This document shows positions 9,076 through 25,024 of a DNA stretch of 25,204 bases, piece after piece (within the stretch, counting starts at the first letter, position 1; each line of letters starts with the position of its first letter). The stretch is from a virus. Position numbers and translations under genes: made by a program. The notes under the pieces were generated by a model. It searched no databases and was not told where the DNA came from. It saw only the letters and a program-made list of their open reading frames with translations. The stretch is from the IMG/VR virus record IMGVR_UViG_3300017739_003719, positions 1 through 25,204 of that record; one strand, given 5' to 3'.

Positions 9076-10266
9076 TTATGCCCCACTTGTCATCTTGGCA
9101 CGAATTCTTGATGTAAAATCATCAAAATCAAAATTGCCGTATTTTACGCCAGGATCACTACGATCAGAAGATACATTTTCATGCAAAATAATTCCGTTTG
9201 CATCAGGAGATATATTGTATTTCATACACAATTCGGCAACCAGAGTTGTACATGCGTCTATCATTTCTTCACTATACATAAAACCATATCCATCTCCAGC
9301 AGTACCTCTAACCGTCATTGGCTTTCCGCTCCTATCACTATAGTTTACCCTATGTGGGTGTCCAACCATTTCAATACCTATACCGGTCCAGTTATACCCA
9401 GGGCAATGCCATGCAACGTCTTTATCAGGTATGGGATTTGCCACATTGCCGCCACCATCAACAGAATAATGCCAAGAGGCAGATCTCCCATCAGCACCGC
9501 TAAAAAGATATCTATTTAAAGACTCGTTTGTGCCTCTGGGCCAGTTTTGTCCGGCAGATGAGTGAAGGACAACATGCTTTATTTGATTGAAATTGACCCT
9601 ATCTGCTTGGCGTAATTGATAAGGAAAAAGATTTAAATAACCCCTGCCGCCAACGCCACCGCCTGTCGAGGGGGTTAAAACTGTTCCTGTAGAGATGGCT
9701 TTTTGCACTAATTCTGATAGTTTACCATCATCACAACCAACCGCTCCAGGGATTCCCAATTGTGCAGACTTGATCTCTGTTGGAGTAGCTATAGAAACAA
9801 AAATACCAGTTTTGAGATTTGGTATTCTTCTTCCTTCAATAACTGTAAAAGCAAACTTTACTCTTACAATCGTATTTTTTTTCAACAAGTCGGCGCTAGC
9901 TCCTGTAATTACAAACTTTGTATGATTACGGACAACACTTTGCAAAGTTACACCAGAGTCTTTAATTTTTTGATAGTCTGTAGGGCTGCAGGGATTAAGT
10001 AAAAAATCATGTGGAGTGTAAACAGAGCTTTCAGCATTCACTGGGGCCAAAGCTCTTGCAAAAAATTCTGTTGCATACTCATAACCAGCAACCAAACCAA
10101 ACAGCCAATCAGCAGCCTTATCTCTAGTTGCCTTTGCAGGCAGAACTTCAAGTACTACTGCGTAGTATTCTTCTGCCAGAGCATCACCATTATAAAATGA
10201 ATCAAAGACCTTTTTTAAAGAGTTATATCCATTATTGGTTCCATATACCTCATTGGGATCAGGCAT
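9076..10266 (-). CDS. Tail-associated N-acetylmuramoyl-L-alanine amidase (amidase_2/PGRP fold) with N-terminal structural domain
   Basis: A 396-residue protein. The C-terminal half (about 208-390) is a zinc amidase of the amidase_2 / peptidoglycan-recognition fold, which cuts the bond between MurNAc and L-Ala. Seen directly: H235 in H-V-V-L-H-S-S-A-G, W-H-Y at 265-267 (the Tyr position of the family), H287 in A-W-H-C-P-G, E299 in G-I-E-M-V-G, and H362 in L-H-E-N with D371 in the D-R-S-D-P-G end motif. These match the T7-lysozyme-type zinc ligands H, H and C/D. The first 175 residues are not part of the amidase. They end in a beta-rich OB-like stretch (about 130-165) and a Gly-rich hinge at 200-208. 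The fused N-domain and the location among baseplate genes suggest a virion enzyme that helps the tail cross the cell wall rather than a free endolysin. It overlaps the upstream gene by 8 bp. Confidence 0.85.
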   Translation of the reverse strand: MPDPNEVYGTNNGYNSLKKVFDSFYNGDALAEEYYAVVLEVLPAKATRDKAADWLFGLVAGYEYATEFFARALAPVNAESSVYTPHDFLLNPCSPTDYQKIKDSGVTLQSVVRNHTKFVITGASADLLKKNTIVRVKFAFTVIEGRRIPNLKTGIFVSIATPTEIKSAQLGIPGAVGCDDGKLSELVQKAISTGTVLTPSTGGGVGGRGYLNLFPYQLRQADRVNFNQIKHVVLHSSAGQNWPRGTNESLNRYLFSGADGRSASWHYSVDGGGNVANPIPDKDVAWHCPGYNWTGIGIEMVGHPHRVNYSDRSGKPMTVRGTAGDGYGFMYSEEMIDACTTLVAELCMKYNISPDANGIILHENVSSDRSDPGVKYGNFDFDDFTSRIRAKMTSGA

Positions 10267-11785: not shown

Positions 11786-12012
11786 CACTTCACCATGTTA
11801 AGTAGATCTTTTTCAGTAATCTTGTTCTCGTTAGATACTCTAACTGTTGGGGGATTTCTGACGACTAAACCGTCAGTTGTTTCAACAAGCTCAAAGCTCC
11901 GAAGAATTGGAACAATATCCAACTCATTTAGTAGTGATTCTTGTAATGCCATCATAATTGAACCAAGTGCTTGGTTTGATAGCTTATGTGCCCTCTCAAT
12001 AGTTTCTTCCAT
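11785..12012 (-). CDS. Hypothetical 75-residue protein
   Basis: A short acidic-to-neutral protein with a helical first half and a short strand pattern near 40-60 that includes N-P-P-T-V-R-V. It has no cysteine, membrane segment or known motif, and I do not recognise the family. The ATG at 12012 is supported by an AAAGGA Shine-Dalgarno 8 bases upstream. It overlaps the end of the epimerase gene by 17 bp and is coupled to the zinc-ribbon gene by a TGATG junction. These features support it as a real gene. It marks the switch from glycan genes to small regulators. Confidence 0.65.
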   Translation of the reverse strand: MEETIERAHKLSNQALGSIMMALQESLLNELDIVPILRSFELVETTDGLVVRNPPTVRVSNENKITEKDLLNMVK

Positions 12013-12841
12013 TTTCTTTTTCCTTTGTTTTAAAACATAATTCTAGCCCATATTGGATGGGTATTTTTGGCCTCCAGCCAAGAGACATAATTTTTGTATT
12101 ATCAGAAGAAGAGTGCTTAATATCGCCTTTTCTTTCTCTTCTCCCTATCCATACAATATCATGATATCTGTTTATTGTTTCTTTTATTTTATTTAAAGAA
12201 CAAGAAACGCCAGTACCAACATCGAGATATAGGCCATTAAATCTGGATTTATAATTCATGCAAAAAATATTTGCATCAACGATATCATTAACATGTATAA
12301 AATCTCTTGTTTGTGTTCCATCGCCATCTATAAATAATGGCTTTCTTTGTCTTATGGCCTCCATCCATGCGCTTATTGCAGTCGAATAAGCACCACCATA
12401 AGGCTGGTCTTCAGAATAAACATTATAATATCTAAGACAAACAGTGTCAAGCCCATAAAGTGAAGAATATAACTTGCACTCTTTTTCTGATAAGAGTTTA
12501 TGCAAACCATATGGAGAAGTTACCCCTTTTCCATCACCGTAAACGGCTGCAGATGAAGAGAATATAACTTTTTTTACGTTATGGTCTTTGGCCCATTGCA
12601 ATAGCACAGAGGTGCCATATGCATTATTTCTAAATGTATTTGCTGGCTGCTCAACCGATCTTTGAACACTAGGGAAAGCAGCTAAATGAAAAACATAATC
12701 ATATGATGTATCTGGTAAATCATATAAAATATCTTTGCCTTCTTTGAGATCAATACCGTGAACTACGTTAATCCCATCGTTCAGCTTTTCAAACAGCTTA
12801 CTACCAATATAGCCCTTATGGCCTGTTATTAAGATTTTCAT
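11996..12841 (-). CDS. NAD-dependent sugar epimerase/dehydratase (extended SDR family)
   Basis: A 281-residue protein of the extended short-chain dehydrogenase/reductase family, as in UDP-glucose 4-epimerase and ADP-heptose 6-epimerase. It has the nucleotide-binding G-H-K-G-Y-I-G at 7-13, the H-L-A-A motif at 52-55, catalytic S95-S-S and Y111-x3-K115, then R-Y-Y-N-V-Y (137-142) and G-D-G-x-Q-T-R-D-F-I-H-V (173-184), which contacts the nucleotide sugar. It is shorter than the usual 310-340 residues, mainly in the substrate-binding lobe, so the substrate cannot be read from sequence. It would act on a nucleotide sugar made by the nucleotidyltransferase three genes upstream. It shares an ATGA overlap with the GDPD-like gene. 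The coding sequence also contains an exact sigma70 consensus (reported separately). Confidence 0.9.
   Translation of the reverse strand: MKILITGHKGYIGSKLFEKLNDGINVVHGIDLKEGKDILYDLPDTSYDYVFHLAAFPSVQRSVEQPANTFRNNAYGTSVLLQWAKDHNVKKVIFSSSAAVYGDGKGVTSPYGLHKLLSEKECKLYSSLYGLDTVCLRYYNVYSEDQPYGGAYSTAISAWMEAIRQRKPLFIDGDGTQTRDFIHVNDIVDANIFCMNYKSRFNGLYLDVGTGVSCSLNKIKETINRYHDIVWIGRRERKGDIKHSSSDNTKIMSLGWRPKIPIQYGLELCFKTKEKENGRNY
12422..12450 (-). promoter_or_regulatory. Exact sigma70 consensus inside the epimerase gene (candidate internal promoter)
   Basis: On the minus strand TTGACA (12450-12445) is followed after exactly 17 bases by TATAAT (12427-12422). Both hexamers and the spacing match the bacterial sigma70 consensus. 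The expected start would be near 12415, about 400 bp before the 75-residue gene and the small-regulator/sigma-factor group. The hexamers fall on codons for L-D-T and Y-N of the conserved R-Y-Y-N-V-Y motif, so protein constraint could have produced the match by chance. Confidence 0.4.
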
Positions 12842-13305
12842 GTTAATCTTTTTTTGTAGATTTCAGGAAAATCTGTGCAGACCGCATACCAGTTTCTATT
12901 TTCAGTATTTTCAATCTGCTCTAAAGACAGTGGAGGAATAATACAAGTTGATGGATCTTTAACGTTGGCGTAGTCATGAGCCCAAATTTTACCATTGCTG
13001 GTAATAATAAAAGGCTCAACAGTGTGCCAAAAAAACTTAAAATTAAGGTCGCAGTGGCTAATGAAAAATTCTAGTGCATCAGAATTTTTTGTATGGATCC
13101 AAAGCTTTTCAGCCCTCGCGTGCAGCCATCCAAGCTCGACCTTCCTTTCTGGTTCGTCATGTCCGAGAAATAGCTCGTTATCTACTAGCCATACATCTAT
13201 CTCTACTTCAAAACCCTTATCTATCGCATGATCAATATAATCTTTAGTGTTCTCAAGTTCGCGATTGATCTTATCTGTGTTTCCTCGATGTGAAATTAAA
13301 ATCAT
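12838..13305 (-). CDS. Glycerophosphodiester phosphodiesterase-like protein (GDPD / PI-PLC-like TIM barrel, short)
   Basis: A 155-residue protein opening with M-I-L-I-S-H-R-G-N. The active-site pattern of the GDPD family is visible: H6-R7-G, E-N-T at 18-20, E35-x-D37 (metal ligands), the second catalytic H49 in L-G-H-D, and H71-x-K73 on a later strand. Typical GDPD domains have about 240 residues, so the last strands of the barrel are shortened or absent. Similar short proteins occur in surface-polysaccharide clusters, where the substrate is not clear. A role in cleaving or transferring a glycerol- or polyol-phosphate group on the glycan is inferred. It follows the HAD gene with a TAATG overlap and has a GAGGA Shine-Dalgarno before its ATG. 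It is coupled to the epimerase by ATGA. Confidence 0.75.
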   Translation of the reverse strand: MILISHRGNTDKINRELENTKDYIDHAIDKGFEVEIDVWLVDNELFLGHDEPERKVELGWLHARAEKLWIHTKNSDALEFFISHCDLNFKFFWHTVEPFIITSNGKIWAHDYANVKDPSTCIIPPLSLEQIENTENRNWYAVCTDFPEIYKKRLT

Positions 13306-13622
13306 TATATTTCCTCAATCCTTTTGCTTCTGTCTTCTATAAAAATATCATAGTAAGGTTTATCGCATCGTAGTTTATGATACTTAACACCCCAAGAATC
13401 CAGCTGTTTTTTGGTGAAGTCATGCCAGTCAATGCCACTACGACTCCCTCTGGCTGTCCAATAGACCACCATATGTCCTTGTTCATAGAGCTTATTTACT
13501 TTTGCTATGTTTGTATGATTAGGTATCGCGGTGTTGTAGTCTTTTTTGCCATCCAGTGGTATCTCTCTCTCATAAAAACAAATTGTCTCATCAATATCGA
13601 CAAATATGGTTTTAGTTTTCAT
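13305..13622 (-). CDS. HAD-superfamily phosphatase, small capsule-cluster type
   Basis: A 105-residue HAD-type hydrolase: F-V-D-I-D-E-T with nucleophile D9 and acid D11, motif II in Y-W-T-A-R-G (T56), Lys88 as the motif III candidate, and acidic I-E-D at 95-97 as motif IV. It lacks a large cap domain, like the small polysaccharide-cluster phosphatases that remove phosphate from sugar phosphates. An in-frame start 15 codons earlier is possible, but the ATG at 13622 is chosen because GGAGG stands 7 bases upstream and the alternative would extend into the upstream gene. The 11-bp overlap with the nucleotidyltransferase and the TAATG junction with the GDPD-like gene show one operon. The cassette contains a second HAD domain, in the SIS fusion. 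Confidence 0.85.
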   Translation of the reverse strand: MKTKTIFVDIDETICFYEREIPLDGKKDYNTAIPNHTNIAKVNKLYEQGHMVVYWTARGSRSGIDWHDFTKKQLDSWGVKYHKLRCDKPYYDIFIEDRSKRIEEI

Positions 13623-14430
13623 GATACTTCCTCCAGTACCTGTAACATTCGACTGCATCTTCTTCACTCTTTACTTGTCCAGATGTTAAGATAGTCTTCC
13701 AGGCCTCAAAGCTTTCAACCTCGGCAGGTGTCCCAAAAACAGTCACAAACTCAGTATCAAAGAAGCCAATTCTATAGCCCTGCTCTACTAAAGAGTTATA
13801 GGCCAAAGTAACATAATACTCACCGTTGTAGTTTATATCTTTGCTGATTGAATTCTTGAAGCAATCTTTCATAATTTGGCCAGTTCGGAAGTAATAGGCA
13901 CCAGTAGAAGCGTGCTCACTCATGGGGTCATCCGTGTAGCATTCCTTCTCCTTAATCTCAAGCATCAGATTCCCTTCTGTTTTAAGAAAAGCCATCTTTG
14001 TTGAGTTTAAGGTGTGAGGGTGTAAGCCTGTATGAGTTAAGATACAGCCATCAAGATTATTGTTTTCTAAATGTGCTTCAAACTCTTGCCTGTTCCACAT
14101 AAAAGGATTATCACAGTAGCAAACCATGACAGGCTCTGAGTCGTCTACTAAACCAATAAATGGCATGATAGTGTAAATTGGGCCTTTTTTATGGTTTTGT
14201 ATCTCAAGAACTTTAGCATCAGGTCTAAGAGAGAGTAAAACTTTTTCTATGTTTGTCTTGTTGAGATGCGTGGTGTTACAAATAAATACTATCTCATCCT
14301 TCTCATCAAACATATCCAAAATATATTCTATTATCCTCTTTCCCCCAACATTAATCAATGGCTTAGGCTCTTCATAGCCAGCCTGTACAAACCTGTTGCC
14401 TGTTCCTGCCATTGGGACTAATACTTTCAT
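13612..14430 (-). CDS. Sugar-phosphate nucleotidyltransferase (NTP_transferase family)
   Basis: A 272-residue protein with the Rossmann-like nucleotide-binding start M-A-G-x-G-x-R-F (7-14) and the P-K-P-L motif (23-26) of glucose-1-phosphate thymidylyl-, cytidylyl- and guanylyltransferases. The usual metal-binding D-x-D of the central strand appears as C-Y-C-D-N-P (about 109-114). The family makes a nucleotide sugar from NTP and a sugar 1-phosphate; neither the base nor the sugar can be read from sequence. Length matches the short form, without the C-terminal beta-helix. It has a TAATG coupling with the kinase-aldolase gene upstream. Together with kinase, isomerase, phosphatase and epimerase nearby, it would fill the activation step of a pathway that resembles nucleotide-heptose synthesis in outline. 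Confidence 0.85.
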   Translation of the reverse strand: MKVLVPMAGTGNRFVQAGYEEPKPLINVGGKRIIEYILDMFDEKDEIVFICNTTHLNKTNIEKVLLSLRPDAKVLEIQNHKKGPIYTIMPFIGLVDDSEPVMVCYCDNPFMWNRQEFEAHLENNNLDGCILTHTGLHPHTLNSTKMAFLKTEGNLMLEIKEKECYTDDPMSEHASTGAYYFRTGQIMKDCFKNSISKDINYNGEYYVTLAYNSLVEQGYRIGFFDTEFVTVFGTPAEVESFEAWKTILTSGQVKSEEDAVECYRYWRKYHEN

Positions 14431-15746
14431 TAATTTTGTTTCCTATATTTTTCTGCTTCCATACTGATAAGCTCTTCTGTAAGTCGGCCTGACAGTGGTT
14501 CAGGCTCTAGTGATGCGTCTTTTAAAAGTTGTTTTATGTAGGCATGATACAAAAGATTAGCCTCTTCTAAGACAACAGCATCAGGATAGAGATATGTCTT
14601 GGTTTTTACAGAGCCATGCAAATACTTCTTACATAAGTTATCAAACTTTATTGTGCTCTGCAAGCATTCTTCTAACGTTTTTCTTGAAATAAAAATTCCA
14701 TGATTTTTTAAGAATGTATTTTTATGTCCATTCAAGGATTGGGACAGCTTGTCCCCTGGGGTTGTGTATCCTATTAATTCATGATCTTTAATTATTGTAT
14801 CAAGGATGTGTTTTGTCTGTTTGCATGACAAGACAGCTAACGCATGAAGTGGATGAGTGTGCAGGCAGCAATCACCCATCTTGACGTGACAGGCTATTTC
14901 CATTGATGGTCTTTTCTGGCCTTCAAAAACACTTTTACCATCTAAGGCATAAAAGCCAAACCCTTCAAAGTAGCTAATCTTATCAAAAGAAGAACCAGAT
15001 TCAGTAATGACTATCACATCCTTGAACTTGAAAGATAGATTGCCACCTTTGTTTTGAGTTATAATATCGTTTTTACCTAACTCTTTACTAACTTTTATAA
15101 AGCTGTTTAGCTTGGAGTATAAAGACTTAATATCATTGATTAAAGAAGCTAGGGAAGGATCCGAATAATCAAATGATAAACCTATCTGTCCGTCTGCTTG
15201 CTTTTTAAATCTAATGACCACATCACATACTTGTTTCTGTGGTTTTATAAACCGCTCCTCGTCTATTTTTCTGTTCTCAATTGTTTTAACAATCTGATCG
15301 ATTGTGTAGCCTCTTTTCTTGGAATCTCTAGATATCTTCCATTCATTTTTTAATTCACTATCAACATCTAAGTAAAAAGACAGGTCAGAAATTTGTTGTA
15401 AAGGCCCGTACATGGAGTGCAGGCCCTCATAGATGATATTTTCTTTAGGAGAAATCTTTATAGGCTCAGAGAAAAGACCGGACGCGTGGCTATAAATTGC
15501 TCTATTAATCTCTACGCCCTCTTTCAACGCTGTTAAATGCGCCACCTCTTGCTCTATATTATTGGCTTCAGGATTAAGGTGAGTTATGAACTTCCAGTTC
15601 TCATCCCCTCTTTCCCATTTGTGAGAGTCATCTCCAGAAACTATTAATGATTTTGTATGGCCCAAACAAATAGAGAGAATTTTTGATAATGTTGTTTTAC
15701 CAACTCCAGAGGGACCAGAAACAGAAATAACTTTATTCACTACCAT
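14430..15746 (-). CDS. Bifunctional P-loop kinase (uridine kinase/PRK-like) - class II aldolase
   Basis: A 438-residue fusion. Residues about 4-195 form a P-loop kinase of the uridine kinase/phosphoribulokinase type: Walker A G-P-S-G-V-G-K-T-T at 11-19, acidic G-D-D at 38-40, Y-E-G-L at 106-109, and R-D-x-K-K-R-G at 140-146. Residues about 205-405 form a class II aldolase/adducin domain: G-G-N-L-S at 234-238, zinc ligands H296-x-H298 in H-T-H-P-L-H-A-L, and H349 in K-N-H-G-I-F. Family knowledge predicts phosphorylation of a polyol or sugar and aldol cleavage or formation of a sugar phosphate or keto-acid. The ATG at 15746 has an A-G-G only 2-3 bases upstream; the GTG at 15740 is better spaced (7 bases from AAAGGA) and may be the true start. 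The 3' end couples by TAATG to the nucleotidyltransferase. Confidence 0.85.
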   Translation of the reverse strand: MVVNKVISVSGPSGVGKTTLSKILSICLGHTKSLIVSGDDSHKWERGDENWKFITHLNPEANNIEQEVAHLTALKEGVEINRAIYSHASGLFSEPIKISPKENIIYEGLHSMYGPLQQISDLSFYLDVDSELKNEWKISRDSKKRGYTIDQIVKTIENRKIDEERFIKPQKQVCDVVIRFKKQADGQIGLSFDYSDPSLASLINDIKSLYSKLNSFIKVSKELGKNDIITQNKGGNLSFKFKDVIVITESGSSFDKISYFEGFGFYALDGKSVFEGQKRPSMEIACHVKMGDCCLHTHPLHALAVLSCKQTKHILDTIIKDHELIGYTTPGDKLSQSLNGHKNTFLKNHGIFISRKTLEECLQSTIKFDNLCKKYLHGSVKTKTYLYPDAVVLEEANLLYHAYIKQLLKDASLEPEPLSGRLTEELISMEAEKYRKQN

Positions 15747-15753
15747 ATCCTTT

Positions 15754-16731
15754 TTAGATTATTTTCTTACTTTCCAGATTGCCAATGCAAGAATTCCAAT
15801 CTACAAATTCTACTGCCTTATCATCAATATAGCAAACTGCTCGTGGTTTTTCCGCTGTAACTTTATTAACAAATTGATCCATGTTGTGTTGCTTCAGCCA
15901 ATCCCAAACTAATTGGATACCAGTCTTTCCATTTACAAGACCTCGATCTGGCTTAGCTTTTGCTGTGTAAATGATGACAGTGTACTTTGAAGATATTCTT
16001 TGGAGTGCTTCGAATGCCCCTTCAACTGGCTCATCATAGATTGTTCCATCATAATAGCCTTTAGAACACTTATGGATTACGCCATCAAAGTCGATTCCTA
16101 TATTAACCTTTTCATCTGGATAGCTGTGCTCTCTAATCTTACCGCCCTGCCAATTTAACTTATCAAGTTGTTCTGGTGTATTCTTGTTGATTGGCGGGCA
16201 AACACTACCAGAGCCATGGGTAAGTTGATATGTCAAAAGCAATGTTAGCACTTCGGAGGTGTGGTAAAACTCAACACCTAAAAGTACTTTCGTAAGTGCT
16301 TCAATCTCCTGGTTAATGTCCTTAGAGGAGATTATTGCAACATTCATTCCTCTATCTGAGGCCCATTGTAATGCTTTGATAATATCAATTGATCTTCCAG
16401 AGGAAGAAATCCCCAATACAAGAGACTTTTTCATTTGGCTGTCGGTTCTTGTAGAAGTTCTCTGTTTAAGCCAAGACACCATCCACTGATCAAAACCAAT
16501 ATCATTAATCAATGAGGTTGTGACAATGCAACTACCGGGACAAATTGCGTTTTTTGTCCCATTGGAAAGTCTTGTGATATCAACAGCAGCATGGTCAGCG
16601 ATTGCCATATTTCCACCATGACCTAGAACATAAATATCATCAGACATGTTAAACTTTTCTTGTAATTCTGCCCATTGAGAACTACCAACAACCTCTATAA
16701 ACTTTTGTCCAATGTTTTCAAAATTAAGCAT
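15754..16731 (-). CDS. Fusion of SIS-domain sugar-phosphate isomerase (GmhA-like) and HAD phosphatase
   Basis: A 325-residue two-domain protein. Residues about 5-180 form a SIS domain resembling phosphoheptose isomerase: L-G-H-G-G-N at 36-41, A-D-H-A-A at 45-49, and the phosphate-binding S-S-S-G-R-S at 109-114. Residues about 208-325 form a HAD domain: nucleophile D214-F-D216-G, motif II I-Y-T-A-K at 254-258, K295, and D303-D304 in Y-I-D-D-K. In bacteria GmhA (isomerase) and GmhB (HAD phosphatase) act in the same heptose route, so this fusion would place an isomerisation and a dephosphorylation on one chain; that pairing is an inference. The start ATG lies inside the end of the HpcH-like gene (8 bp overlap) with AAAGGA about 9 bases upstream. 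Confidence 0.85.
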   Translation of the reverse strand: MLNFENIGQKFIEVVGSSQWAELQEKFNMSDDIYVLGHGGNMAIADHAAVDITRLSNGTKNAICPGSCIVTTSLINDIGFDQWMVSWLKQRTSTRTDSQMKKSLVLGISSSGRSIDIIKALQWASDRGMNVAIISSKDINQEIEALTKVLLGVEFYHTSEVLTLLLTYQLTHGSGSVCPPINKNTPEQLDKLNWQGGKIREHSYPDEKVNIGIDFDGVIHKCSKGYYDGTIYDEPVEGAFEALQRISSKYTVIIYTAKAKPDRGLVNGKTGIQLVWDWLKQHNMDQFVNKVTAEKPRAVCYIDDKAVEFVDWNSCIGNLESKKII

Positions 16732-17404
16732 TTAAGATATTCCTTTTATTAAAATTTTTGATTGCAATTGTGTCCATGCCAAGACATTTTAACCCATAAT
16801 CGTGGTACTTTTCAAGCTCTTCTTCTATATTTTCTGGTATATGAACCGCTAATTTATCACTTGGTATTTGTGATTTAACCTTGTTTACATAAGATATAAA
16901 CTTTTCATCGTTAAATTTTGCCGGAATACCCAATGACATACTTAAGTCATAAGGGCCTATTAAGAAATAATCAAATTTATGTTCTTTAATTGTTTCAAGA
17001 TTATCAACCGCTTGCTTGGTTTCAATTTGTGCAATCAGAATTGGTGGATCTTGTATGAGTTTTTTATCACCCCATAGATTCTGTCTTACCAGACCTAATC
17101 CTCTTTTTCCATTAGGAGGATACAGGGAGAACTCAAATATATCTTTACATTGAGAATCATTTTCAATAGTAGAAAAAATGATTCCATTAACGCCATAATC
17201 AAGAACCCATTTAATAAGATTCTTATCAACTGTGGGTAATCTAACAAAGCACATCTTATTGCTCAGTCTGGCAACTTGGATACAGGATGCCAGAGTCTCA
17301 TTATTAAACAATGAGTGTTCAAGATCAAGCACCACGCCGTTAAAACCATTGCACATTATCTCAGTGACTAAAGGCGATGGTATTTGTTGCCAAGATAAAA
17401 TCAT
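16724..17404 (-). CDS. HpcH/HpaI-family class II aldolase (2-keto-3-deoxy acid aldolase type)
   Basis: A 226-residue TIM-barrel protein of the HpcH/HpaI family, whose members reversibly join pyruvate to aldehydes to give 2-keto-3-deoxy acids. Conserved sites are present: L-D-L-E-H with the catalytic-His position H30, V-R-L-P with R55, Y-P-P-x-G-x-R-G at 95-102, Q-I-E-T with metal ligand E128, and G-P-Y-D-L-S with metal ligand D153. The first strand begins almost at the start Met, so it is shorter than the usual 250-260 residues at the N-terminus but complete in the active site. It shares an ATGA overlap with the GT2-like gene and an 8-bp overlap with the SIS-HAD gene. In a sugar cassette it is more likely to work in synthesis than in aromatic catabolism; that is an inference. 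Confidence 0.88.
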   Translation of the reverse strand: MILSWQQIPSPLVTEIMCNGFNGVVLDLEHSLFNNETLASCIQVARLSNKMCFVRLPTVDKNLIKWVLDYGVNGIIFSTIENDSQCKDIFEFSLYPPNGKRGLGLVRQNLWGDKKLIQDPPILIAQIETKQAVDNLETIKEHKFDYFLIGPYDLSMSLGIPAKFNDEKFISYVNKVKSQIPSDKLAVHIPENIEEELEKYHDYGLKCLGMDTIAIKNFNKRNILNA

Positions 17405-18309
17405 ATTGTCAAAACTCCATCAGTTATATAACCTTTGCCGGGTAAATCTTCCACATCTTTTTCAAAGAAAGGATATCTTACAAATTGAGGCGTCTTGGGG
17501 GGTGAAGGTAGGTTATCTGTAAAATCTTCTGGCCAATTAATCAGCCATCCAGGCTGATCCCAAGTTCCCTTAATCATGGGCAGATCGCTTTTTGTACCTG
17601 TCCATTTCCATCTCCAATAATAATCAGTAGCAGGATTACATAAATTCTGTTCATTTCTTAATATTCTGTGTTGTTCATTCTCAATTTTTCTAGAGGTCCA
17701 GTTTTTGTTTATAACAAAACCTCTGTTACCTATTAAGTCCAATGAAAGAGATGGATCATGATTATACAACCTTCTATGGAGTAGATCATTGATGGACGAC
17801 CTGTCTTTATTATAAATCAAACTCCTAATGTAATAATCAGCTTCTTTATGATAAACGGTGCAAAAATTCTCATCCCACAGGCCTGTCTTTATAATATGCC
17901 TTGGCTTATAGGCAACAATATTATCACCTAAATAGCCAACAAGAAAATCATACTTTTCCATTTGGTTCATAACACAGCTAGCCCAATTACCATGTAAGAC
18001 AGCATCGTTCTGAAGCGTTACTACTACTTCAGAGTCTGGATTTTTTAAGTCTCTAAACCCATGTACAAGGGCAAAATTAAAATCTGCGGAGAGATTCCCT
18101 GTAGACCAGTCTACTCTGGTCATATTGTGGAACACATTTACTTTATCATCAAATTTTTGATCGATTTGAAAATCACTATGATTGTTAATAATATTGACTT
18201 CTGTATTATCAAGCTCAACAAAATCACTATTTTCAAAAATGTTGTGTAGCAGTTCGCTTAATACATCATTCCTTTTCCAAGTTACAATATAGACTTTTAA
18301 TTTCTTCAC
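17401..18309 (-). CDS. Glycosyltransferase, GT2-like (GT-A fold)
   Basis: A 302-residue protein starting with a basic lead and the strand V-Y-I-V-T-W-K-R-N-D, typical of the first nucleotide-binding strand of GT-A enzymes. A central T-L-Q-N-D-A-V-L motif (about 98-105) stands where GT2 enzymes have the D-x-D metal site, so only one Asp of the motif is kept. The C-terminal half is rich in Trp, Tyr and Arg (for example Y-Y-W-R-W-K-W at about 229-235), which may bind acceptor sugars. The start is GTG at 18309, chosen because AAGGA lies 7 bases upstream and no better ATG exists. It is separated by 4 bp from the CMP-sugar-synthetase-like gene. The family call is fair; donor and acceptor are unknown. 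Confidence 0.7.
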   Translation of the reverse strand: MKKLKVYIVTWKRNDVLSELLHNIFENSDFVELDNTEVNIINNHSDFQIDQKFDDKVNVFHNMTRVDWSTGNLSADFNFALVHGFRDLKNPDSEVVVTLQNDAVLHGNWASCVMNQMEKYDFLVGYLGDNIVAYKPRHIIKTGLWDENFCTVYHKEADYYIRSLIYNKDRSSINDLLHRRLYNHDPSLSLDLIGNRGFVINKNWTSRKIENEQHRILRNEQNLCNPATDYYWRWKWTGTKSDLPMIKGTWDQPGWLINWPEDFTDNLPSPPKTPQFVRYPFFEKDVEDLPGKGYITDGVLTI

Positions 18310-18313
18310 TTAA

Positions 18314-18979
18314 TTATCCTTCTTTATTCTGTTTTAAAAATTGTAAGTAATTTAGACATTTTTGCCAATCACTCTCATTATCAATATCAAGATTTTCTGG
18401 TTCTTGTATCTCATAGAAATATGGTTTTTTACCAACCCTAGAGCCTACAGACAAGAAAGAAGAAGGGTTGAATATGTAAAATGCGGAGTTTTCTTCATAA
18501 AATTTTGGCAAGTCTTGCGTTTGTTGCATATCAACAGGGTTGTGGTTTACAGGACAGAAGCCATACTTTTCTTTCCGCCAGAATCGTGAATAGTAGGTGT
18601 TACACGAAACCACTGAATCATGGCCAGCCATCATCCTATATGCTTCTTTTACTGTTTCTTCTCTCAGGAAAGGGCTAGTGACATGTAACTGAATAATTGG
18701 TTCGGTGATACCGTGTGTAACAATGAAATCTTCTATTAATAGACAAACAGAAGTATTATGTCCTTTTAGAGATTCTTTTCGATCAATGACATGAACATTT
18801 TTTAGTCTATCATCTGTGTTGATACTTTTTTTAACCTCTTGGCTATCGGTATCAACAAAAATATCGTATTTAGAAAATTTTAACAAAGTGTGTTTGAATA
18901 AAGGTTCGTTATTAAAATTTCTAAAGTTTTTTCTAGGGACTCTCTGTGAGATATGCTTAATTGGAATGAATAACTTCAT
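18314..18979 (-). CDS. CMP-sugar-acid synthetase (acylneuraminate/KDO cytidylyltransferase-like)
   Basis: A 221-residue cytidylyltransferase of the NeuA/KdsB-like group, which couples CTP to a keto-sugar acid such as sialic acid or KDO. Features seen: the N-terminal I-P-I-K-x3-Q-R-V-P-R-K-N-F-R loop (5-20), the equivalent of the S-x-R-x2-K-N pattern; F-V-D-T-D-S at 41-46; T-S-P-F-L-R at 101-106; E-N-S-A-F-Y-I-F at 163-170; and E-N-L-D-I-D-x3-D-W at 195-205, the typical closing metal motif. NeuA is usually about 225-230 residues, so the length fits. No NeuB- or KdsA-type PEP-dependent synthase is in the window. It overlaps the GT29-like gene by one base (TAATG), so the two are probably translated together, which suggests that the product feeds that transferase. 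Confidence 0.85.
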   Translation of the reverse strand: MKLFIPIKHISQRVPRKNFRNFNNEPLFKHTLLKFSKYDIFVDTDSQEVKKSINTDDRLKNVHVIDRKESLKGHNTSVCLLIEDFIVTHGITEPIIQLHVTSPFLREETVKEAYRMMAGHDSVVSCNTYYSRFWRKEKYGFCPVNHNPVDMQQTQDLPKFYEENSAFYIFNPSSFLSVGSRVGKKPYFYEIQEPENLDIDNESDWQKCLNYLQFLKQNKEG

Positions 18980-19650
18980 TATTCGCTGAGGGCTTCTTTT
19001 AAAAACATGTCCATTTTAACCCTATCATCATTTTTTAATACTGTCTTCATGAATGAAATTTGAGGCGCTTGTACATGATTTCCATGTGCTCTCATTCTTT
19101 CCATAACACTTTCTTCATTGTGGTATCTATATTCTTTGGCGTATCCTCCTTTAAAGAAAGTTATACCAGTTATATACAATTCTTTTATATCACATGACAA
19201 TAGATCAAGGATAGCAAGAACACCAGAATTTGGTCTGGTTCCCATCTCAGAGGCTAGTTTAGTATAATACTCTTTTTCAAAAGTACAAAACTTTAACCTG
19301 TCCATATTACAATTAATGAAATTTTGAATATTGCTGCTGAAAGGCTGAATACTTGGGTAAGGACAAATGAGCCAATCAATTTCTTCTTGTAGGTAGCCTA
19401 TATGTAGATGTCCTCCTGACTCAGGATCTGGATCTAAACAATTATATAGAACATTAGTTTTAGTCCCAGAACTATCATGCAAGTTTTTGTGTACTGGTAA
19501 TGCTTTGTTTATTCTTACAACCACATCGTAAGAATCTATCAAATCTTTTTGCGACAGATCTTTTATTGAAGAGGCAGGGCCTACAAGACAAACTGTCTTA
19601 CCTTTTAGGTATGTTTTATATTGCTCTCTTTCTTTATCCAATACCAACAC
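18979..19650 (-). CDS. Glycosyltransferase family 29 (sialyltransferase-family) protein
   Basis: A 223-residue protein with the sialyl-motif architecture of GT29. An L-motif-like region (about 17-70) starts K-T-V-C-L-V-G-P-A-S-S and continues Y-D-V-V-V-R-I-N-K-A (41-50), then G-T-K-T-N-V-L-Y-N (62-70). An S-motif-like region (about 138-165) reads T-R-P-N-S-G-V-L-A-I-L-D-L-L, then L-Y-I-T-G-I-T-F-F. A His-containing C-terminal stretch, H-G-N-H at 189-192, may supply the catalytic His of the VS motif. Classical GT29 enzymes use CMP-sialic acid. It has no signal anchor, unlike the eukaryotic Golgi enzymes, so it would act in the bacterial cytoplasm. The start is GTG at 19650 with AAGGTGA 6 bases upstream, overlapping the preceding gene by 17 bp. 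Donor identity is unproven. Confidence 0.82.
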   Translation of the reverse strand: MLVLDKEREQYKTYLKGKTVCLVGPASSIKDLSQKDLIDSYDVVVRINKALPVHKNLHDSSGTKTNVLYNCLDPDPESGGHLHIGYLQEEIDWLICPYPSIQPFSSNIQNFINCNMDRLKFCTFEKEYYTKLASEMGTRPNSGVLAILDLLSCDIKELYITGITFFKGGYAKEYRYHNEESVMERMRAHGNHVQAPQISFMKTVLKNDDRVKMDMFLKEALSE

Positions 19651-21583
19651 TTTCTATCACCTTTTTGAAGTTTCTTGATGCAGGGGGGAAAAAAGTAAAC
19701 CCATTTTTTTCTGCTATTTCTTTCTTTAGGGTTAACTGGTTAAGTTCAACGTAAGAGTCATCGTTGTGCCAAACAGTATTTTCCTTATCGAAGGACAATA
19801 TAACACCATTATTGTGCATACGCAAAGACATTTCTATATCTTCGTTAAGTTTTCCGTTTTTTTCTGCGTTTATTGGTATCGCAGAGTTCCACTTACAGGA
19901 CTCGTATGTCTCCCTTCTCATGATCCAAAAACCTCCTGTTTGATAAAGATTTTTAGAATAATTTGGATAGTCATAACTCACAAGCTTATGTGGATTCATA
20001 GTGGCTCTGTCCCAGAATCTACCACCATCTGGTAGGAGAATCTTATTGGCTGTGACTTGCCAACCATTGGTAGTAGAGAATTCTACTAATCTTGAGGCCC
20101 AATTCTCGGGGAATAAGAAATCATCATCAACAAAAACTAATACATCGTGTGTGGCCTTTTCTGCTGCGTTATTTCTTAGCTTAGCTAACAGCCCATTGTT
20201 TGCGTCATCAGGCGTATCAACCAAAGTGACATCGATATCAGCAAATGGCTCGGTGACTCCTGCTATGATTATCTCGTAAGGAAGCCCAACCGCTTTCATG
20301 GTCTTGCGGATTGATACAACTTCTGCTTTTGTCTTCTCTGGTTTACCTGCGTTGGTTGAGATGCAAAAGCTTATACCCTCTACGAGCTTTGGCTCTATGT
20401 TTTGTTGTCCCTGGACTTCAGAAACAAACTGTCCATACATCTTTTCTGCAGAAAATCTCTCTGATAAGTTGGATTTATCCCACACTATTGCACTGTTAAC
20501 CCCATTATTATAGCAAAGCCTCATTTGTTCTCTAGCAGAAGACTCTCTAGGGAAAGCCCACATAGAGTTCTCTATCAGAACACCTTCCCAGACAACTTCT
20601 TTTTGAACAGCCTGTAGATCAAACGCCACATTATAGAATCGATTCTTTCCTTCTTCATCGACCAAGAAATCAAGCTGGCCTGACCAGCCTGTGGCGACGA
20701 CAGGAAGGCCGCTGTAAGCTGCCTCAAAGATTGGGAGACCGAATCCCTCACCGTGGGGTAGGGCTAGAAACGCATTGATTCTAGGGTGATTATAGAGCGA
20801 GTGCATTTCTTCATCCGTCATGTCTCCGTGTAGGAGATAGATCTTACACTTTTTTTCACCCAAAGAATTGACCAAGGTACGGAGTTGTTCTTCCAGCACC
20901 TCTCTATCCATAAGACAGTTTTTTGCAACATTAGACTTTAAAATTAAGCCAACATCATCGTTTCTAAACTCTTCAACAAACCATCTTATAGTGTTGGGAA
21001 GATTCTTCCTTGGCCCGAACTGAGCAACCGATAGAAAGTTGAAGCTTGTATCAACATTGATTTCAATTTCTGGTAGGGACTCAAATGTCTTAACGGGGTA
21101 GTTGACAGATTCAACAGGGGTATTCGTCTTTAGTAATACCTCTTGTCCTGTTTGTTTATTAACTGCCTCGTAAACAGTATCCAGAAAGACATTCTTTGAA
21201 TGAGAAGAAACAACAATAATCTTATCCATCTCATTACACTTCAAAATCCACTCATGGGCCACTTTTGTGGTTTCAATGCCTGCTGTATATCCAATATTAA
21301 CGGAAGCAATCTTTTGAAATTCATTAGGAATTGTTACCTGTATTGAGAGATCAAAGGTACCGCCTTGTTGGGTGTAATTTATCGTCTTTTCAATTGTCTG
21401 ATCAATCCACCGTCTTTCCTCGTTATCCTCGACAGACCAAGAGGTCTTACCCCACTGTAATGGTTGGATATAGATCTCGAACAGATCTTCTCTACTTCTC
21501 AAAGAGCGTAGAGCGAATCTTGCTTGTTCTCCATAGCCACTACGGGTTAGTAATGGGCCTTTCAATAAAACTTTGTTCTTCAT
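19634..21583 (-). CDS. Two-domain glycosyltransferase: GT4 (GT-B) followed by GT2 (GT-A)
   Basis: A 649-residue fusion. Residues about 1-390 are a GT4-like GT-B enzyme: an S-G-Y-G-E-Q-A-R N-terminal loop, F-G-P-R-K-N-L at the start of the second Rossmann domain, and the donor-binding H-G-E-G-F-G-L-P-I-F-E-A motif (E-x7-E). Residues about 400-635 are a GT2-like GT-A domain: an F-C-I-S-T opening strand, the metal-binding V-F-V-D-D-D-F-L, a G-G-F-W-I-M-R-R strand and the E-D-I-E-M-S acceptor motif typical of GT2. A longer reading from a TTG seven codons earlier exists, but the ATG at 21583 has AGGAG 7 bases upstream and an ATGA overlap with the previous gene, so it is preferred. Two transferases in one chain suggest consecutive sugar additions. 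Sugars are unknown. Confidence 0.88.
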   Translation of the reverse strand: MKNKVLLKGPLLTRSGYGEQARFALRSLRSREDLFEIYIQPLQWGKTSWSVEDNEERRWIDQTIEKTINYTQQGGTFDLSIQVTIPNEFQKIASVNIGYTAGIETTKVAHEWILKCNEMDKIIVVSSHSKNVFLDTVYEAVNKQTGQEVLLKTNTPVESVNYPVKTFESLPEIEINVDTSFNFLSVAQFGPRKNLPNTIRWFVEEFRNDDVGLILKSNVAKNCLMDREVLEEQLRTLVNSLGEKKCKIYLLHGDMTDEEMHSLYNHPRINAFLALPHGEGFGLPIFEAAYSGLPVVATGWSGQLDFLVDEEGKNRFYNVAFDLQAVQKEVVWEGVLIENSMWAFPRESSAREQMRLCYNNGVNSAIVWDKSNLSERFSAEKMYGQFVSEVQGQQNIEPKLVEGISFCISTNAGKPEKTKAEVVSIRKTMKAVGLPYEIIIAGVTEPFADIDVTLVDTPDDANNGLLAKLRNNAAEKATHDVLVFVDDDFLFPENWASRLVEFSTTNGWQVTANKILLPDGGRFWDRATMNPHKLVSYDYPNYSKNLYQTGGFWIMRRETYESCKWNSAIPINAEKNGKLNEDIEMSLRMHNNGVILSFDKENTVWHNDDSYVELNQLTLKKEIAEKNGFTFFPPASRNFKKVIESVGIG

Positions 21584-22860
21584 GCTATCTCCTTTAGATG
21601 CCAACGCTTATATCCCTTTCTGTTTTCCCAAGAACCATGCTTTTCAACTATATCATCCATAATCTCAACCCACCGTTCTTCAAACTTATTAAATCCATAA
21701 TTATTTCTAACATGTGCCTTGCCTAGTGTCACCATCTTTTTATAGGTCTTTGGTCTAATTTCTAAAGATGATGTTAAGGCCTTTTCAAAATCTTTTTGGG
21801 TAATTCTGTCTTCATAGATGTAAGGAACCTGCAAAGATCCAATAACTGTTCTTGAAGCAGGCTCAATCCCGAACCCAAACCAGTTTCTGCTATCTGTAAC
21901 TTGCTCCTGTAGGCCTCCTGTCATGTTTACAATAATAGGCGTGCCTGAAGAAAGAGATTCCAAAGTCGCCAAACCAAACCCTTCTGCATCTGAAATGTTC
22001 ATTGTAAAATCAGCAGCCTTGTAAAGATTAGCCAAGTCTTGTTGTGATAATTTATTGGTTGAGAGTAATACCTGTCCCTTGTTTAGGCCAAGCTTGTTTA
22101 TTATATGAGGCAGATCTTGTCCGTGGGGGTCTCTGGCATCGGTATGCATAAGGAGCATAGCCTTATCGTGACCAACCTTATCTAGCCACTCTTTAAACCA
22201 CCAAATTAGTGTACCACTCTGCTTTCTTCTGGCGTTTCTATTGTTCCAAAAATAGATCTTTCTTTTATCATTCTTAAGTTTGCCGGCTGCAAGTATTTGA
22301 TTTCTCAGTCCAATAACTTTTTGCTTCTCTTCTTCGGTTTTTGCTGATTTAAAGATTTCAGAATTAACAGCGTGAGGTAGATAGTGAGAAGGGACTTCTG
22401 GCGATACTTCTTGTAAGATTTTATGTGTTACCTTAGAAATACAAACAATTTCATCAGTTGATCTATAAAACTTTCCATTAAATTCGGGTGCTGGAAAATT
22501 ATCCCAAACGTGGTAATAAACCATTGGGATTTTTGATCTGATTTCGTTCTCCATTTCCCATAGCCATCCGTAGAATCTTGGATCTGTCATAAACCATAGG
22601 ACATCTGGCCTTTCTTTTTGAAGAACAGACCTGATCATCTCTGGGGTTCCATAACCATCAACTGGGAAAATTCTCCATGAGTCGCCCCAAGGATCTATCT
22701 TTACCGGGGTATAATCATTATGTTTCATAGCCCCACCAAAAGATACAATTTCATATCGGCCAGTCTTAAGCAAAGCCTCAATGAAATACTTGGTCTGAGA
22801 CCCTACCCCTGATGGGGAGAGAGGGTGATCACTCAGTGTTAAAATCTTAGTCTTTTTCAT
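21580..22860 (-). CDS. Glycosyltransferase, GT4 family
   Basis: A 426-residue GT-B glycosyltransferase. The N-terminal domain has the S-P-S-G-V-G-S-Q-T loop (about 15-23) of GT4 enzymes. The C-terminal domain has D-A-E-G-F-G-L-A-T-L-E-S with the E-x7-E donor site, followed by G-T-P-I-I-V-N-M-T-G-G. A Y-F-W-N-N-R-N-A-R-R-K motif at the start of the second domain matches the phosphate-binding N-R-x-x-K region. Family enzymes transfer a sugar from a nucleotide donor with retention. It is the first glycan gene after the nuclease, 8 bp downstream, with AAAGGA just before the ATG, and probably shares the sigma70-like promoter at 23650. It may start the glycan chain, but donor and acceptor cannot be read. 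Confidence 0.88.
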   Translation of the reverse strand: MKKTKILTLSDHPLSPSGVGSQTKYFIEALLKTGRYEIVSFGGAMKHNDYTPVKIDPWGDSWRIFPVDGYGTPEMIRSVLQKERPDVLWFMTDPRFYGWLWEMENEIRSKIPMVYYHVWDNFPAPEFNGKFYRSTDEIVCISKVTHKILQEVSPEVPSHYLPHAVNSEIFKSAKTEEEKQKVIGLRNQILAAGKLKNDKRKIYFWNNRNARRKQSGTLIWWFKEWLDKVGHDKAMLLMHTDARDPHGQDLPHIINKLGLNKGQVLLSTNKLSQQDLANLYKAADFTMNISDAEGFGLATLESLSSGTPIIVNMTGGLQEQVTDSRNWFGFGIEPASRTVIGSLQVPYIYEDRITQKDFEKALTSSLEIRPKTYKKMVTLGKAHVRNNYGFNKFEERWVEIMDDIVEKHGSWENRKGYKRWHLKEIA

Positions 22861-24359: not shown

Positions 24360-24588
24360 CGTCTAAACCTTGCTTATAGCCTCTAATCCAGTTCTCTTCC
24401 GCCATCACCATTAGGAATTCTGGAAACTCTGATGCCAAAGTCTCAGCGACCATTTGTACAGTGACAAAGTATTCACCTTCATCTTCCTTCGTTGCAAATC
24501 TTTTGCCAACATAATCAACAATCATTTGCTTGAGCGGGTTGTCTTTTCTAACTGCGACATGCAGCATTGGGTTTTCATTTGTATTCAT
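24319..24588 (-). CDS. Hypothetical 89-residue protein
   Basis: A small, acidic, mostly helical protein. The C-terminal half has an E-N-W-I-R-G-Y-K-Q-G-L-D-D-A segment at about 65-78, and the tail is Thr/Glu-rich. There is no membrane segment, cysteine or catalytic motif, and I do not recognise a family. An AAGGAG site stands about 6 bases before the ATG, which supports translation. Its 5' end overlaps the hydroxylase gene by 14 bp and its 3' end runs 41 bp into the metallopeptidase gene. The double overlap and the good ribosome site make it a real gene rather than a shadow. Confidence 0.65.
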   Translation of the reverse strand: MNTNENPMLHVAVRKDNPLKQMIVDYVGKRFATKEDEGEYFVTVQMVAETLASEFPEFLMVMAEENWIRGYKQGLDDAQIRGTETETTD

Positions 24589-25024
24589 ATTTTCTCCTTG
24601 TTCCCATTATTAAATCTGCGAGTGGGTGTACAACACACCAGTTCATGTTTTGATTCTTTCCCATATGGTGGTCATAGTGCCACGGTATTGCTTTTCTTGC
24701 AAAGTTTGGGTATGCATGTGCGACTGTGTGAAGAACATAATAAGTTCCAGCATGGACAGCCATAGCATAATACATATAAGGAAGTATGAACCAAATTGGA
24801 ATGGCGAGGACACAGAGAGATAACACACCAACAATTTCTCTTCCAGATATTGATTTGTCGATAAAGTCATTTCTTCTAGCATTTGCATGATGATGTCCCC
24901 AGTGAAACGAAAAGATAGAAACTTTCTTCTTTCCTAGTTCGTGCAAGATGTGTTTGTGTACAGTCCACTCGATAAAAGAGGCTGCTATAAGACCAGCCAA
25001 AGTCTGCAAAATAACATAAATCAT
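24575..25024 (-). CDS. Fatty acid hydroxylase / sterol desaturase superfamily membrane enzyme
   Basis: A 149-residue integral membrane protein with the histidine clusters of the di-iron fatty acid hydroxylase superfamily: H23-K-H-I-L-H28, H41-W-G-H-H-H46, H99-x3-H103, H116-Y-D-H-H120 and H133. Hydrophobic segments lie at about 3-19 and 64-100. The family uses a di-iron centre and O2 to hydroxylate or desaturate lipids, sterols or carotenoids. It is shorter than many cellular members (200-300 residues), like compact carotenoid-hydroxylase-type forms. It would act in the host membrane, probably changing lipids or pigments during infection; the substrate is unknown. It starts within the phoH stop codon (ATGA overlap), so its translation is coupled to phoH. 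Confidence 0.85.
   Translation of the reverse strand: MIYVILQTLAGLIAASFIEWTVHKHILHELGKKKVSIFSFHWGHHHANARRNDFIDKSISGREIVGVLSLCVLAIPIWFILPYMYYAMAVHAGTYYVLHTVAHAYPNFARKAIPWHYDHHMGKNQNMNWCVVHPLADLIMGTRRKYEYK

Follow-up and report, generated by a model that had tools for sequence, protein, structure and literature searches.

The 25,204-base IMG/VR virus record IMGVR_UViG_3300017739_003719, referred to here in its full length as the window, is a fragment of a marine contractile-tailed phage with baseplate wedge genes at 1-1521 and an endolysin gene at 9076-10266. Its sugar-enzyme genes form a single long minus-strand run at 11996-22860. Within this run, four intact minus-strand open reading frames encode a GT29-like glycosyltransferase, a cytidine monophosphate (CMP)-sugar synthetase, an HpcH/HpaI aldolase and a protein in which an SIS isomerase domain is fused to an HAD phosphatase domain (Table 1). 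These four genes are considered here as candidates for one pathway to an activated acidic sugar.

Table 1. Genes of the sugar-enzyme run with their predicted functions; the four candidate pathway genes and the gene lying between them are given first.
Feature	Positions	Strand	Remarks
GT29-type (sialyltransferase-fold) glycosyltransferase	18979..19650	-	223 amino acids (aa), GTG start
CMP-ulosonate synthetase, NeuA/PseF branch (CTP_transf_3)	18314..18979	-	221 aa
Conserved 302-aa protein between synthetase and aldolase genes	17401..18309	-	no family match
HpcH/HpaI class II pyruvate aldolase	16724..17404	-	226 aa, C-terminally short
SIS isomerase domain (GmhA-like) fused to HAD phosphatase domain	15754..16731	-	325 aa
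Uridine-kinase/PRK domain + class II aldolase domain fusion	14430..15746	-	Pfam PRK 1.2e-33, Aldolase_II 4.6e-16
Sugar nucleotidyltransferase	13612..14430	-	NTP_transf_3 9.6e-9; phrog_3980 4.3e-53
GT4 + GT2 two-domain glycosyltransferase, directly upstream of GT29	19634..21604	-	Glycos_transf_1 1.4e-8, Glycos_transf_2 4.1e-8
GT4 glycosyltransferase, upstream, same gene run	21580..22860	-	Glycos_transf_1 2e-10; phrog_2170 1.7e-28

The enzymes and their active sites

The aldolase passes the Pfam threshold for HpcH_HpaI (PF03328; 1.7e-16, 60.6 bits, cut-off 25), scores 79 bits against the NCBIfam HpaI model and 73 bits against GarL, and matches the PDB entries 4tv5 (1.1e-19) and 2vws (YfaU, 2.9e-15). 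W5, D27, E29, H30, R55, Q126, E128, D153 and H188 are invariant in 26 phage members, and five of these positions align with YfaU and 4tv5: E128 and D153 with the metal-binding Glu and Asp, H30 and R55 with the catalytic His and Arg, and W5 with the aldehyde-site Trp. The roles given to these residues are presumed from those known in HpaI, in part from PMC8560999. The claim made earlier from the sequence alone, that the aldolase keeps its metal and catalytic residues, is thereby borne out. In vitro, pyruvate is added by HpaI enzymes to aldehydes of C3-C6, D-glyceraldehyde being one acceptor (PMC8560999).

The synthetase is likewise recognised by its Pfam family (CTP_transf_3, PF02348; 4.4e-14, 53.2 bits, cut-off 22.6), and its nearest named family is PseF, although with 50 bits it fails the NCBIfam equivalog cut-off of 205.7. 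Its best PDB match by phmmer is PpNeuA (1.1e-10). The predicted structure has a mean predicted local distance difference test (pLDDT) of 94.9, and its 17 best Foldseek matches are synthetases for CMP-ketodeoxynononic acid (Kdn), CMP-N-acetylneuraminic acid (Neu5Ac) or CMP-pseudaminic acid (Pse), with KdsB coming after them; the original assignment as a NeuA/KdsB-like cytidylyltransferase agrees with this. The metal-binding Asp pair is kept as D198/D200, aligned to the DxD of the murine CMP-sialic acid synthetase (CSS). In the Neisseria CSS the substitutions D209A/D211A cripple the enzyme, and Gln104 binds substrate and metal (PMC2901514). This glutamine is not kept, as its position is taken by His99 in the window. 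A histidine stands there in all 18 sampled HpcH-linked synthetases, and most synthetases from HpcH-less records carry other residues. His99 is a clade-specific substitution inside the synthetase family, and its distribution suggests that the HpcH-linked members share a distinctive substrate. By family, predicted fold and most of its key residues, the protein is a predicted CMP-ulosonate synthetase.

The synthetase gene overlaps the GT29 gene by the one base at 18979, as had been read before. The GT29 assignment itself fared unevenly, since the profile search falls short of the curated threshold (PF00777, 19 bits, cut-off 23) while motifs and predicted fold support it. An alignment of 26 phage sequences contains the sialyl motifs L (VGP..ID.hD.VvR..G, that is VGP...IDxxDxVxR...GxxT) and S (PNSG) as well as an invariant histidine, H192. 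The AlphaFold model built on this alignment has a pLDDT of 88.7, and its first 43 Foldseek matches in the PDB are all sialyltransferases (best 2wnb, E 7.4e-8). It superimposes on the mammalian sialyltransferase 2wml with Z 15.0 over 182 residues, compared with 11.4 for the best unrelated fold. On the strength of family motifs and predicted fold, rather than of the Pfam score, the protein is accepted as a GT29-type enzyme with the putative GT-A-variant fold of sialyltransferases. A spurious motif match had been considered as well, and is ruled out by the Foldseek and Z-score results. In several phages (L008, L085) the GT29 domain is fused to an N-terminal domain. A donor other than a sialate is plausible for the phage enzymes by analogy, because the plant GT29 member RCKT1 is a probable transferase of 3-deoxy-D-manno-octulosonic acid (KDO), which may use CMP-Kdo (PMC12168206).

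The SIS domain of the fusion protein lies under its Pfam cut-off, so that the call rests on NCBIfam and PDB profiles: the gmhA model gives 32.6 bits over residues 23-139, missing the equivalog cut-off of 209.45, and the best PDB match is the phosphoheptose isomerase 5i01 (1.8e-8). The HAD part matches phrog_1238 over residues 207-323. The SIS signature SSSGxS with H47, D51, H157 and E160 is invariant in 26 sequences, and so are D214, D216, K258, D303 and D304 of the HAD part. The SIS domain therefore appears GmhA-like, with phosphoheptose isomerase as its nearest relative, and the HAD catalytic residues are kept. The 302-aa protein encoded between synthetase and aldolase finds no match in Pfam, PHROG or NCBIfam; its homologues occur in most related clusters, adjoining CMP synthetase or nucleotidyltransferase genes in L094-L152 and others, and by eye it is a probable glycosyltransferase.

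Linkage of aldolase and synthetase in phages and cells

Viral relatives were reached first by an alignment of the nearby nucleotidyltransferase and then by SIS-HAD and HpcH alignments, which recovered 69 and 29 loci, respectively. Scans with the single HpcH, synthetase and GT29 sequences gave no relatives, nor did tblastn in named phages for synthetase and GT29; for HpcH its sole match (33%) lay in unverified Staphylococcus phage assemblies that are maybe host DNA. An unverified 282-kb "Staphylococcus phage" record (L005, OR844989.1) that has an HpcH gene and an epimerase gene may be host DNA, too.

Counting the window, 78 viral loci were compared. HpcH is present in 45, and 39 of these also have a CMP synthetase; in the remaining six the sequence breaks off on the side that holds it in their siblings. 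The aldolase gene adjoins SIS-HAD in 35 of the 39 loci, and five (L096, L103, L118, L122, L152) have GT29, synthetase, HpcH and SIS-HAD genes in one contiguous run. The order of the genes changes from locus to locus but the set stays together, as is expected of a functional unit. Among 86 contigs picked via a different gene, a CMP synthetase was found in all four contigs with an SIS or SIS-HAD gene and in one of the other 82. The co-occurrence of these genes is far above chance. A 2-hydroxyacid dehydrogenase gene adjoins the HpcH and CMP synthetase genes or lies near them in a few records (L113:12376-13302, L174, L185, L187, L189).

The linkage extends to the phylogeny of the synthetase. When 62 phage synthetases are placed in a tree, 21 of them, the window's among these, group in one clade (support 100/100); its members all come from HpcH-bearing records, one per record, even where a record holds two or three synthetases. 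This clade co-evolves with HpcH. Elsewhere in the set, a triad of cupin, SDR and CMP synthetase genes recurs, often with SIS-HAD (L008:12336-14126, L085:6625-8418 and others), and synthetases of 380 aa occur at L098:2198-4514, there fused to a cupin domain, and L160:8868-12198. What looks by eye like a class III aminotransferase gene directly follows the L098 synthetase and lies a few genes on in L160, an arrangement that hints at an amino-ulosonate branch.

To our knowledge, known CMP-KDO and CMP-nonulosonic acid routes start with a synthase that depends on phosphoenolpyruvate (PEP). NeuB and KdsA-type genes are missing from the window, which being a fragment carries little weight alone, and also from 27 of 29 related HpcH-bearing records, some longer than 110 kb. 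Across 50 related records with SIS-HAD and CMP synthetase, NeuB occurs in four and a KdsA-type synthase in two. The earlier statement that no PEP-dependent synthase is present hence holds for the fragment and these 27 relatives, but not for L113 and L155. Both of the latter contain KdsA, NeuB and HpcH with three synthetases, and KdsA and NeuB each adjoin a synthetase, while L105 combines NeuB and a DHDPS-family gene with two synthetases. In all three records the number of synthetases matches that of the enzymes forming carbon-carbon bonds, which counts in favour of the pathway proposed below.

Where HpcH is missing, its place can be taken by another family. Pfam scans of the neighbours of HpcH-less SIS-HAD/CMP synthetase pairs revealed FAH and DHDPS families, one TAL/FSA aldolase and one RuBisCO-like protein. 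The FAH-family gene (PF01557, 1.7e-41 and 5.5e-46) occupies the same slot in ten HpcH-less loci with SIS-HAD and synthetase, and in L105 a gene of the DHDPS/neuraminate-lyase family directly precedes the synthetase (1.1e-21). FAH and HpcH are mutually exclusive across the 50 records (FAH in none of 29 with HpcH and five of 21 without; Fisher p 0.01, uncorrected for kinship). The TAL/FSA gene is a member of the transaldolase/fructose-6-phosphate-aldolase family (L144:15402-16106; PF00923, 3.8e-39) in an HpcH-less phage, where a CMP synthetase and SIS-HAD lie close by. The gene for the RuBisCO-like protein (L150:12354-13538; PF00016, 2.9e-33) belongs to a sugar cluster of a phage and lies a few genes from an SIS-HAD gene and from a CMP synthetase gene for which there is no known aldolase partner. 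At L011:14633-15700, directly before a CMP synthetase and with an SIS gene near, stands a gene that by eye is of the dehydroquinate-synthase/cyclitol-synthase type; it has profile-level cellular relatives in L209 and L224.

The same pairing is found in cells. The 26-sequence HpcH alignment, run against 84,980 genomes, yielded 52 loci, of which 51 were scored; a two-sequence alignment had given none. A CMP synthetase lies within 6 kb of HpcH in 38 of these 51 nearest cellular loci (27 KdsB-like only, 11 NeuA-like), and the chance expectation is about 0.017 per 12.7 kb (71 CTP_transf_3 genes in 52.2 Mb of 15 genomes), a figure that ignores the clustering of polysaccharide genes. The 38 loci also contain a 2-hydroxyacid dehydrogenase (31), a Gfo/Idh oxidoreductase (17), an inositol-monophosphatase-type phosphatase (12) or SIS (9). 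In the cultured Kiloniella laminariae (L218), HpcH, a KdsB-like synthetase (258.9 bits, cut-off 255), Gfo/Idh, SIS, the inositol-monophosphatase-type phosphatase and the 2-hydroxyacid dehydrogenase stand in a row. Because all 15 genomes hold a DAHP/KdsA-type synthase elsewhere, the cellular pair seems to be additional to the standard route. Four FAH-linked, catabolic-looking cellular HpcH loci have no synthetase. The idea that the phage aldolase is a catabolic HpaI acquired by chance was dropped on this account, since FAH-linked cellular HpcH genes are without CMP synthetases.

In the HpcH tree the phage sequences form two main groups inside a 30-row clade (100/100), in or beside which lie a few cell-derived contigs (L201-L204) that may be viral themselves. 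As aldolase and synthetase are paired in bacteria and archaea too, the phages may have borrowed a cellular pathway.

A proposed route and its rivals

Taken together, the genes at 15754-19650 probably specify a short route, independent of PEP, that leads to a CMP-activated ulosonic acid (a 2-keto-3-deoxy sugar acid), together with its transferase; we put the probability at roughly two in three. The basis for this consists of the gene families, the intact active sites, the predicted folds of GT29 enzyme and synthetase, the linkage and the co-evolution of the synthetase clade with HpcH. In such a route, isomerisation of a sugar phosphate by the SIS domain would be followed by loss of the phosphate through the HAD domain, giving a free aldose, which the HpcH/HpaI class II aldolase would join to pyruvate. 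The resulting 2-keto-3-deoxy acid would be coupled to CMP from cytidine triphosphate (CTP) by the NeuA/PseF-branch synthetase, and the GT29 enzyme would finally move the acid sugar onto an acceptor glycan of the host surface or the virion. The direction of the reaction, the product's chain length and stereochemistry, the part played by SIS-HAD, the donor used by GT29 and the acceptor are inferred. Candidate products would be KDO or an epimer from D-arabinose, Kdn from mannose and a C10 acid from a heptose. The pathway claimed in the sequence-only reading is partly supported: the idea that the aldolase feeds the synthetase gains support because the two are coupled at the level of clades, other carbon-carbon enzymes replace the aldolase in its slot and the pair recurs in bacteria and archaea.

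Several observations speak against this route. HpcH aldolases catalyse a reversible reaction, and those that have been characterised serve catabolism. Dephosphorylation before the aldol addition leaves a free aldose, which is an unusual intermediate. A second synthetase group (8 rows, 100/99), linked to cupin and SDR genes, also accompanies HpcH, which therefore goes with more than one synthetase type, and some HpcH-bearing clusters have no GT29 label. Nor is the pair of synthetase and SIS-HAD always accompanied by a carbon-carbon enzyme: in 14 of the 50 searched records (e.g. L007, L123, L131) no enzyme that forms an ulosonate is recognised. Since most members of the FAH family act as hydrolases, hydratases or decarboxylases, FAH is weaker evidence for a functional stand-in than DHDPS. 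Finally, many of the compared phages are related, so that the linkage counts are not independent, and the window phage is incomplete.

The 14 records count in favour of a rival in which synthetase and GT29 use an ulosonic acid made by the host (KDO, pseudaminic, legionaminic or sialic acid) and the aldolase serves another branch of the cluster. Phages often rely on host precursors, and the closeness of the synthetase to PseF among named families fits as well. This explanation, which the sequence-only reading had named as its alternative for CMP-sugars, keeps some weight and is nevertheless improbable: all synthetases of the window's clade share their record with HpcH, FAH or DHDPS families fill the slot where HpcH is missing, and cellular HpcH pairs with a synthetase in genomes that already have KdsA/DAHP-type synthases. 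It is less likely still that the aldolase cleaves a host ulosonic acid, for example blocking host surface decoration or recovering pyruvate. Characterised HpaI, GarL and YfaU do work in catabolism (annotations; PMC8560999), but no transporter, kinase or dehydrogenase that would serve such breakdown is recognised in the cassette, its surroundings are glycosyltransferases and nucleotidyltransferases, and the four catabolic-looking cellular loci are among those without synthetase. Equally slim are the chances that a small 2-keto-3-deoxy or hydroxy acid, rather than being activated with CMP, is reduced and then added as a substituent that is not a sugar, since the 2-hydroxyacid dehydrogenase that would favour it (31 of 38 cellular HpcH-CMP synthetase loci and L113, L155, L174, L185, L187 and L189) is lacking in the window and in most phage cassettes, while a CMP synthetase is always present wherever the sequence reaches.

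The PEP-independent route can be extended into a wider claim, which we advance tentatively and at somewhat less than even odds: marine phages, many bacteria and archaea would share an undescribed PEP-independent CMP-ulosonate pathway with HpcH/HpaI as the committed enzyme and a product distinct from KDO, Kdn and the known nonulosonic acids. Speculatively, this product could be a C7 acid such as 3-deoxy-D-lyxo-heptulosaric acid (Dha), the biosynthesis and nucleotide form of which are listed as unknown (PMC12168206).

Neighbouring genes and relation to known pathways

Adjacent to the pathway genes, at 11996-15746, lies a second module with an epimerase, a GDPD-like protein, an HAD protein, the phrog_3980 nucleotidyltransferase and the kinase/class II aldolase fusion. 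Parts of it also occur in two cyanophages, S-SM2 and Bellamy, and in dozens of marine contigs that have neither HpcH nor a CMP synthetase, and in most related phages with the PRK/class II aldolase fusion these two genes are missing alongside. The genes at 13612-15746 appear to belong to this neighbouring module, separate from the pathway genes. Further away, a 2172-aa tail-region protein (1527-8045) has no PHROG match, and a gene at 24575-25024 belongs to the fatty-acid-hydroxylase family (5.9e-8).

If the proposed route is true, it would constitute a second, unnoticed entry into CMP-ulosonate sugars in phages and several bacterial and archaeal phyla, and many "HpaI/GarL" genes of polysaccharide clusters that now bear catabolic names would need re-annotation. 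The phage would then have a complete cassette to make, activate and attach a charged sugar at the surface, with possible effects on how other phages recognise the host, and a testable way to new acidic sugars on marine microbes would be at hand. No description of the pairing of HpcH with a CMP synthetase was found in the open-licence literature.

The components belong to known families, and their combination would take the place of the PEP-dependent step that commits a pathway of a known type. The CMP-KDO pathway (KdsD, KdsA, KdsC, KdsB) has the same logic of SIS isomerase, carbon-carbon bond formation, HAD phosphatase and CMP coupling, and cellular HpcH clusters often contain a KdsB-like synthetase. 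It differs in that an HpcH/HpaI pyruvate aldolase stands in place of the PEP-dependent KdsA, that the phage SIS domain resembles GmhA and shares a polypeptide with the HAD domain, that the phage synthetase belongs to the NeuA/PseF branch and that, if the proposed order is right, aldol addition follows dephosphorylation. With the CMP-sialic acid, Kdn and pseudaminic acid pathways (NeuB, phosphatase, NeuA/PseF) the phage genes share the fold and motifs of the synthetase and the GT29 transferase fold, whereas NeuB is found neither in the fragment nor in 46 of 50 related records and no enzymes for amino-sugar precursors are recognised in the cassette. The proposed aldol step resembles N-acetylneuraminate lyase, HpaI or YfaU working in reverse, with pyruvate and an aldose giving a 2-keto-3-deoxy acid, and L105 has a member of the lyase family (DHDPS); those enzymes are catabolic or bench tools, while the phage aldolase lies in a biosynthetic run with synthetase and transferase. 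Like bacterial and plant GT29 enzymes (PMC5811610; RCKT1, PMC12168206), the phage GT29 proteins have the sialyl motifs minus the animal cysteines, and they are set apart by being phage-encoded, often N-terminally fused and linked to a pyruvate aldolase.

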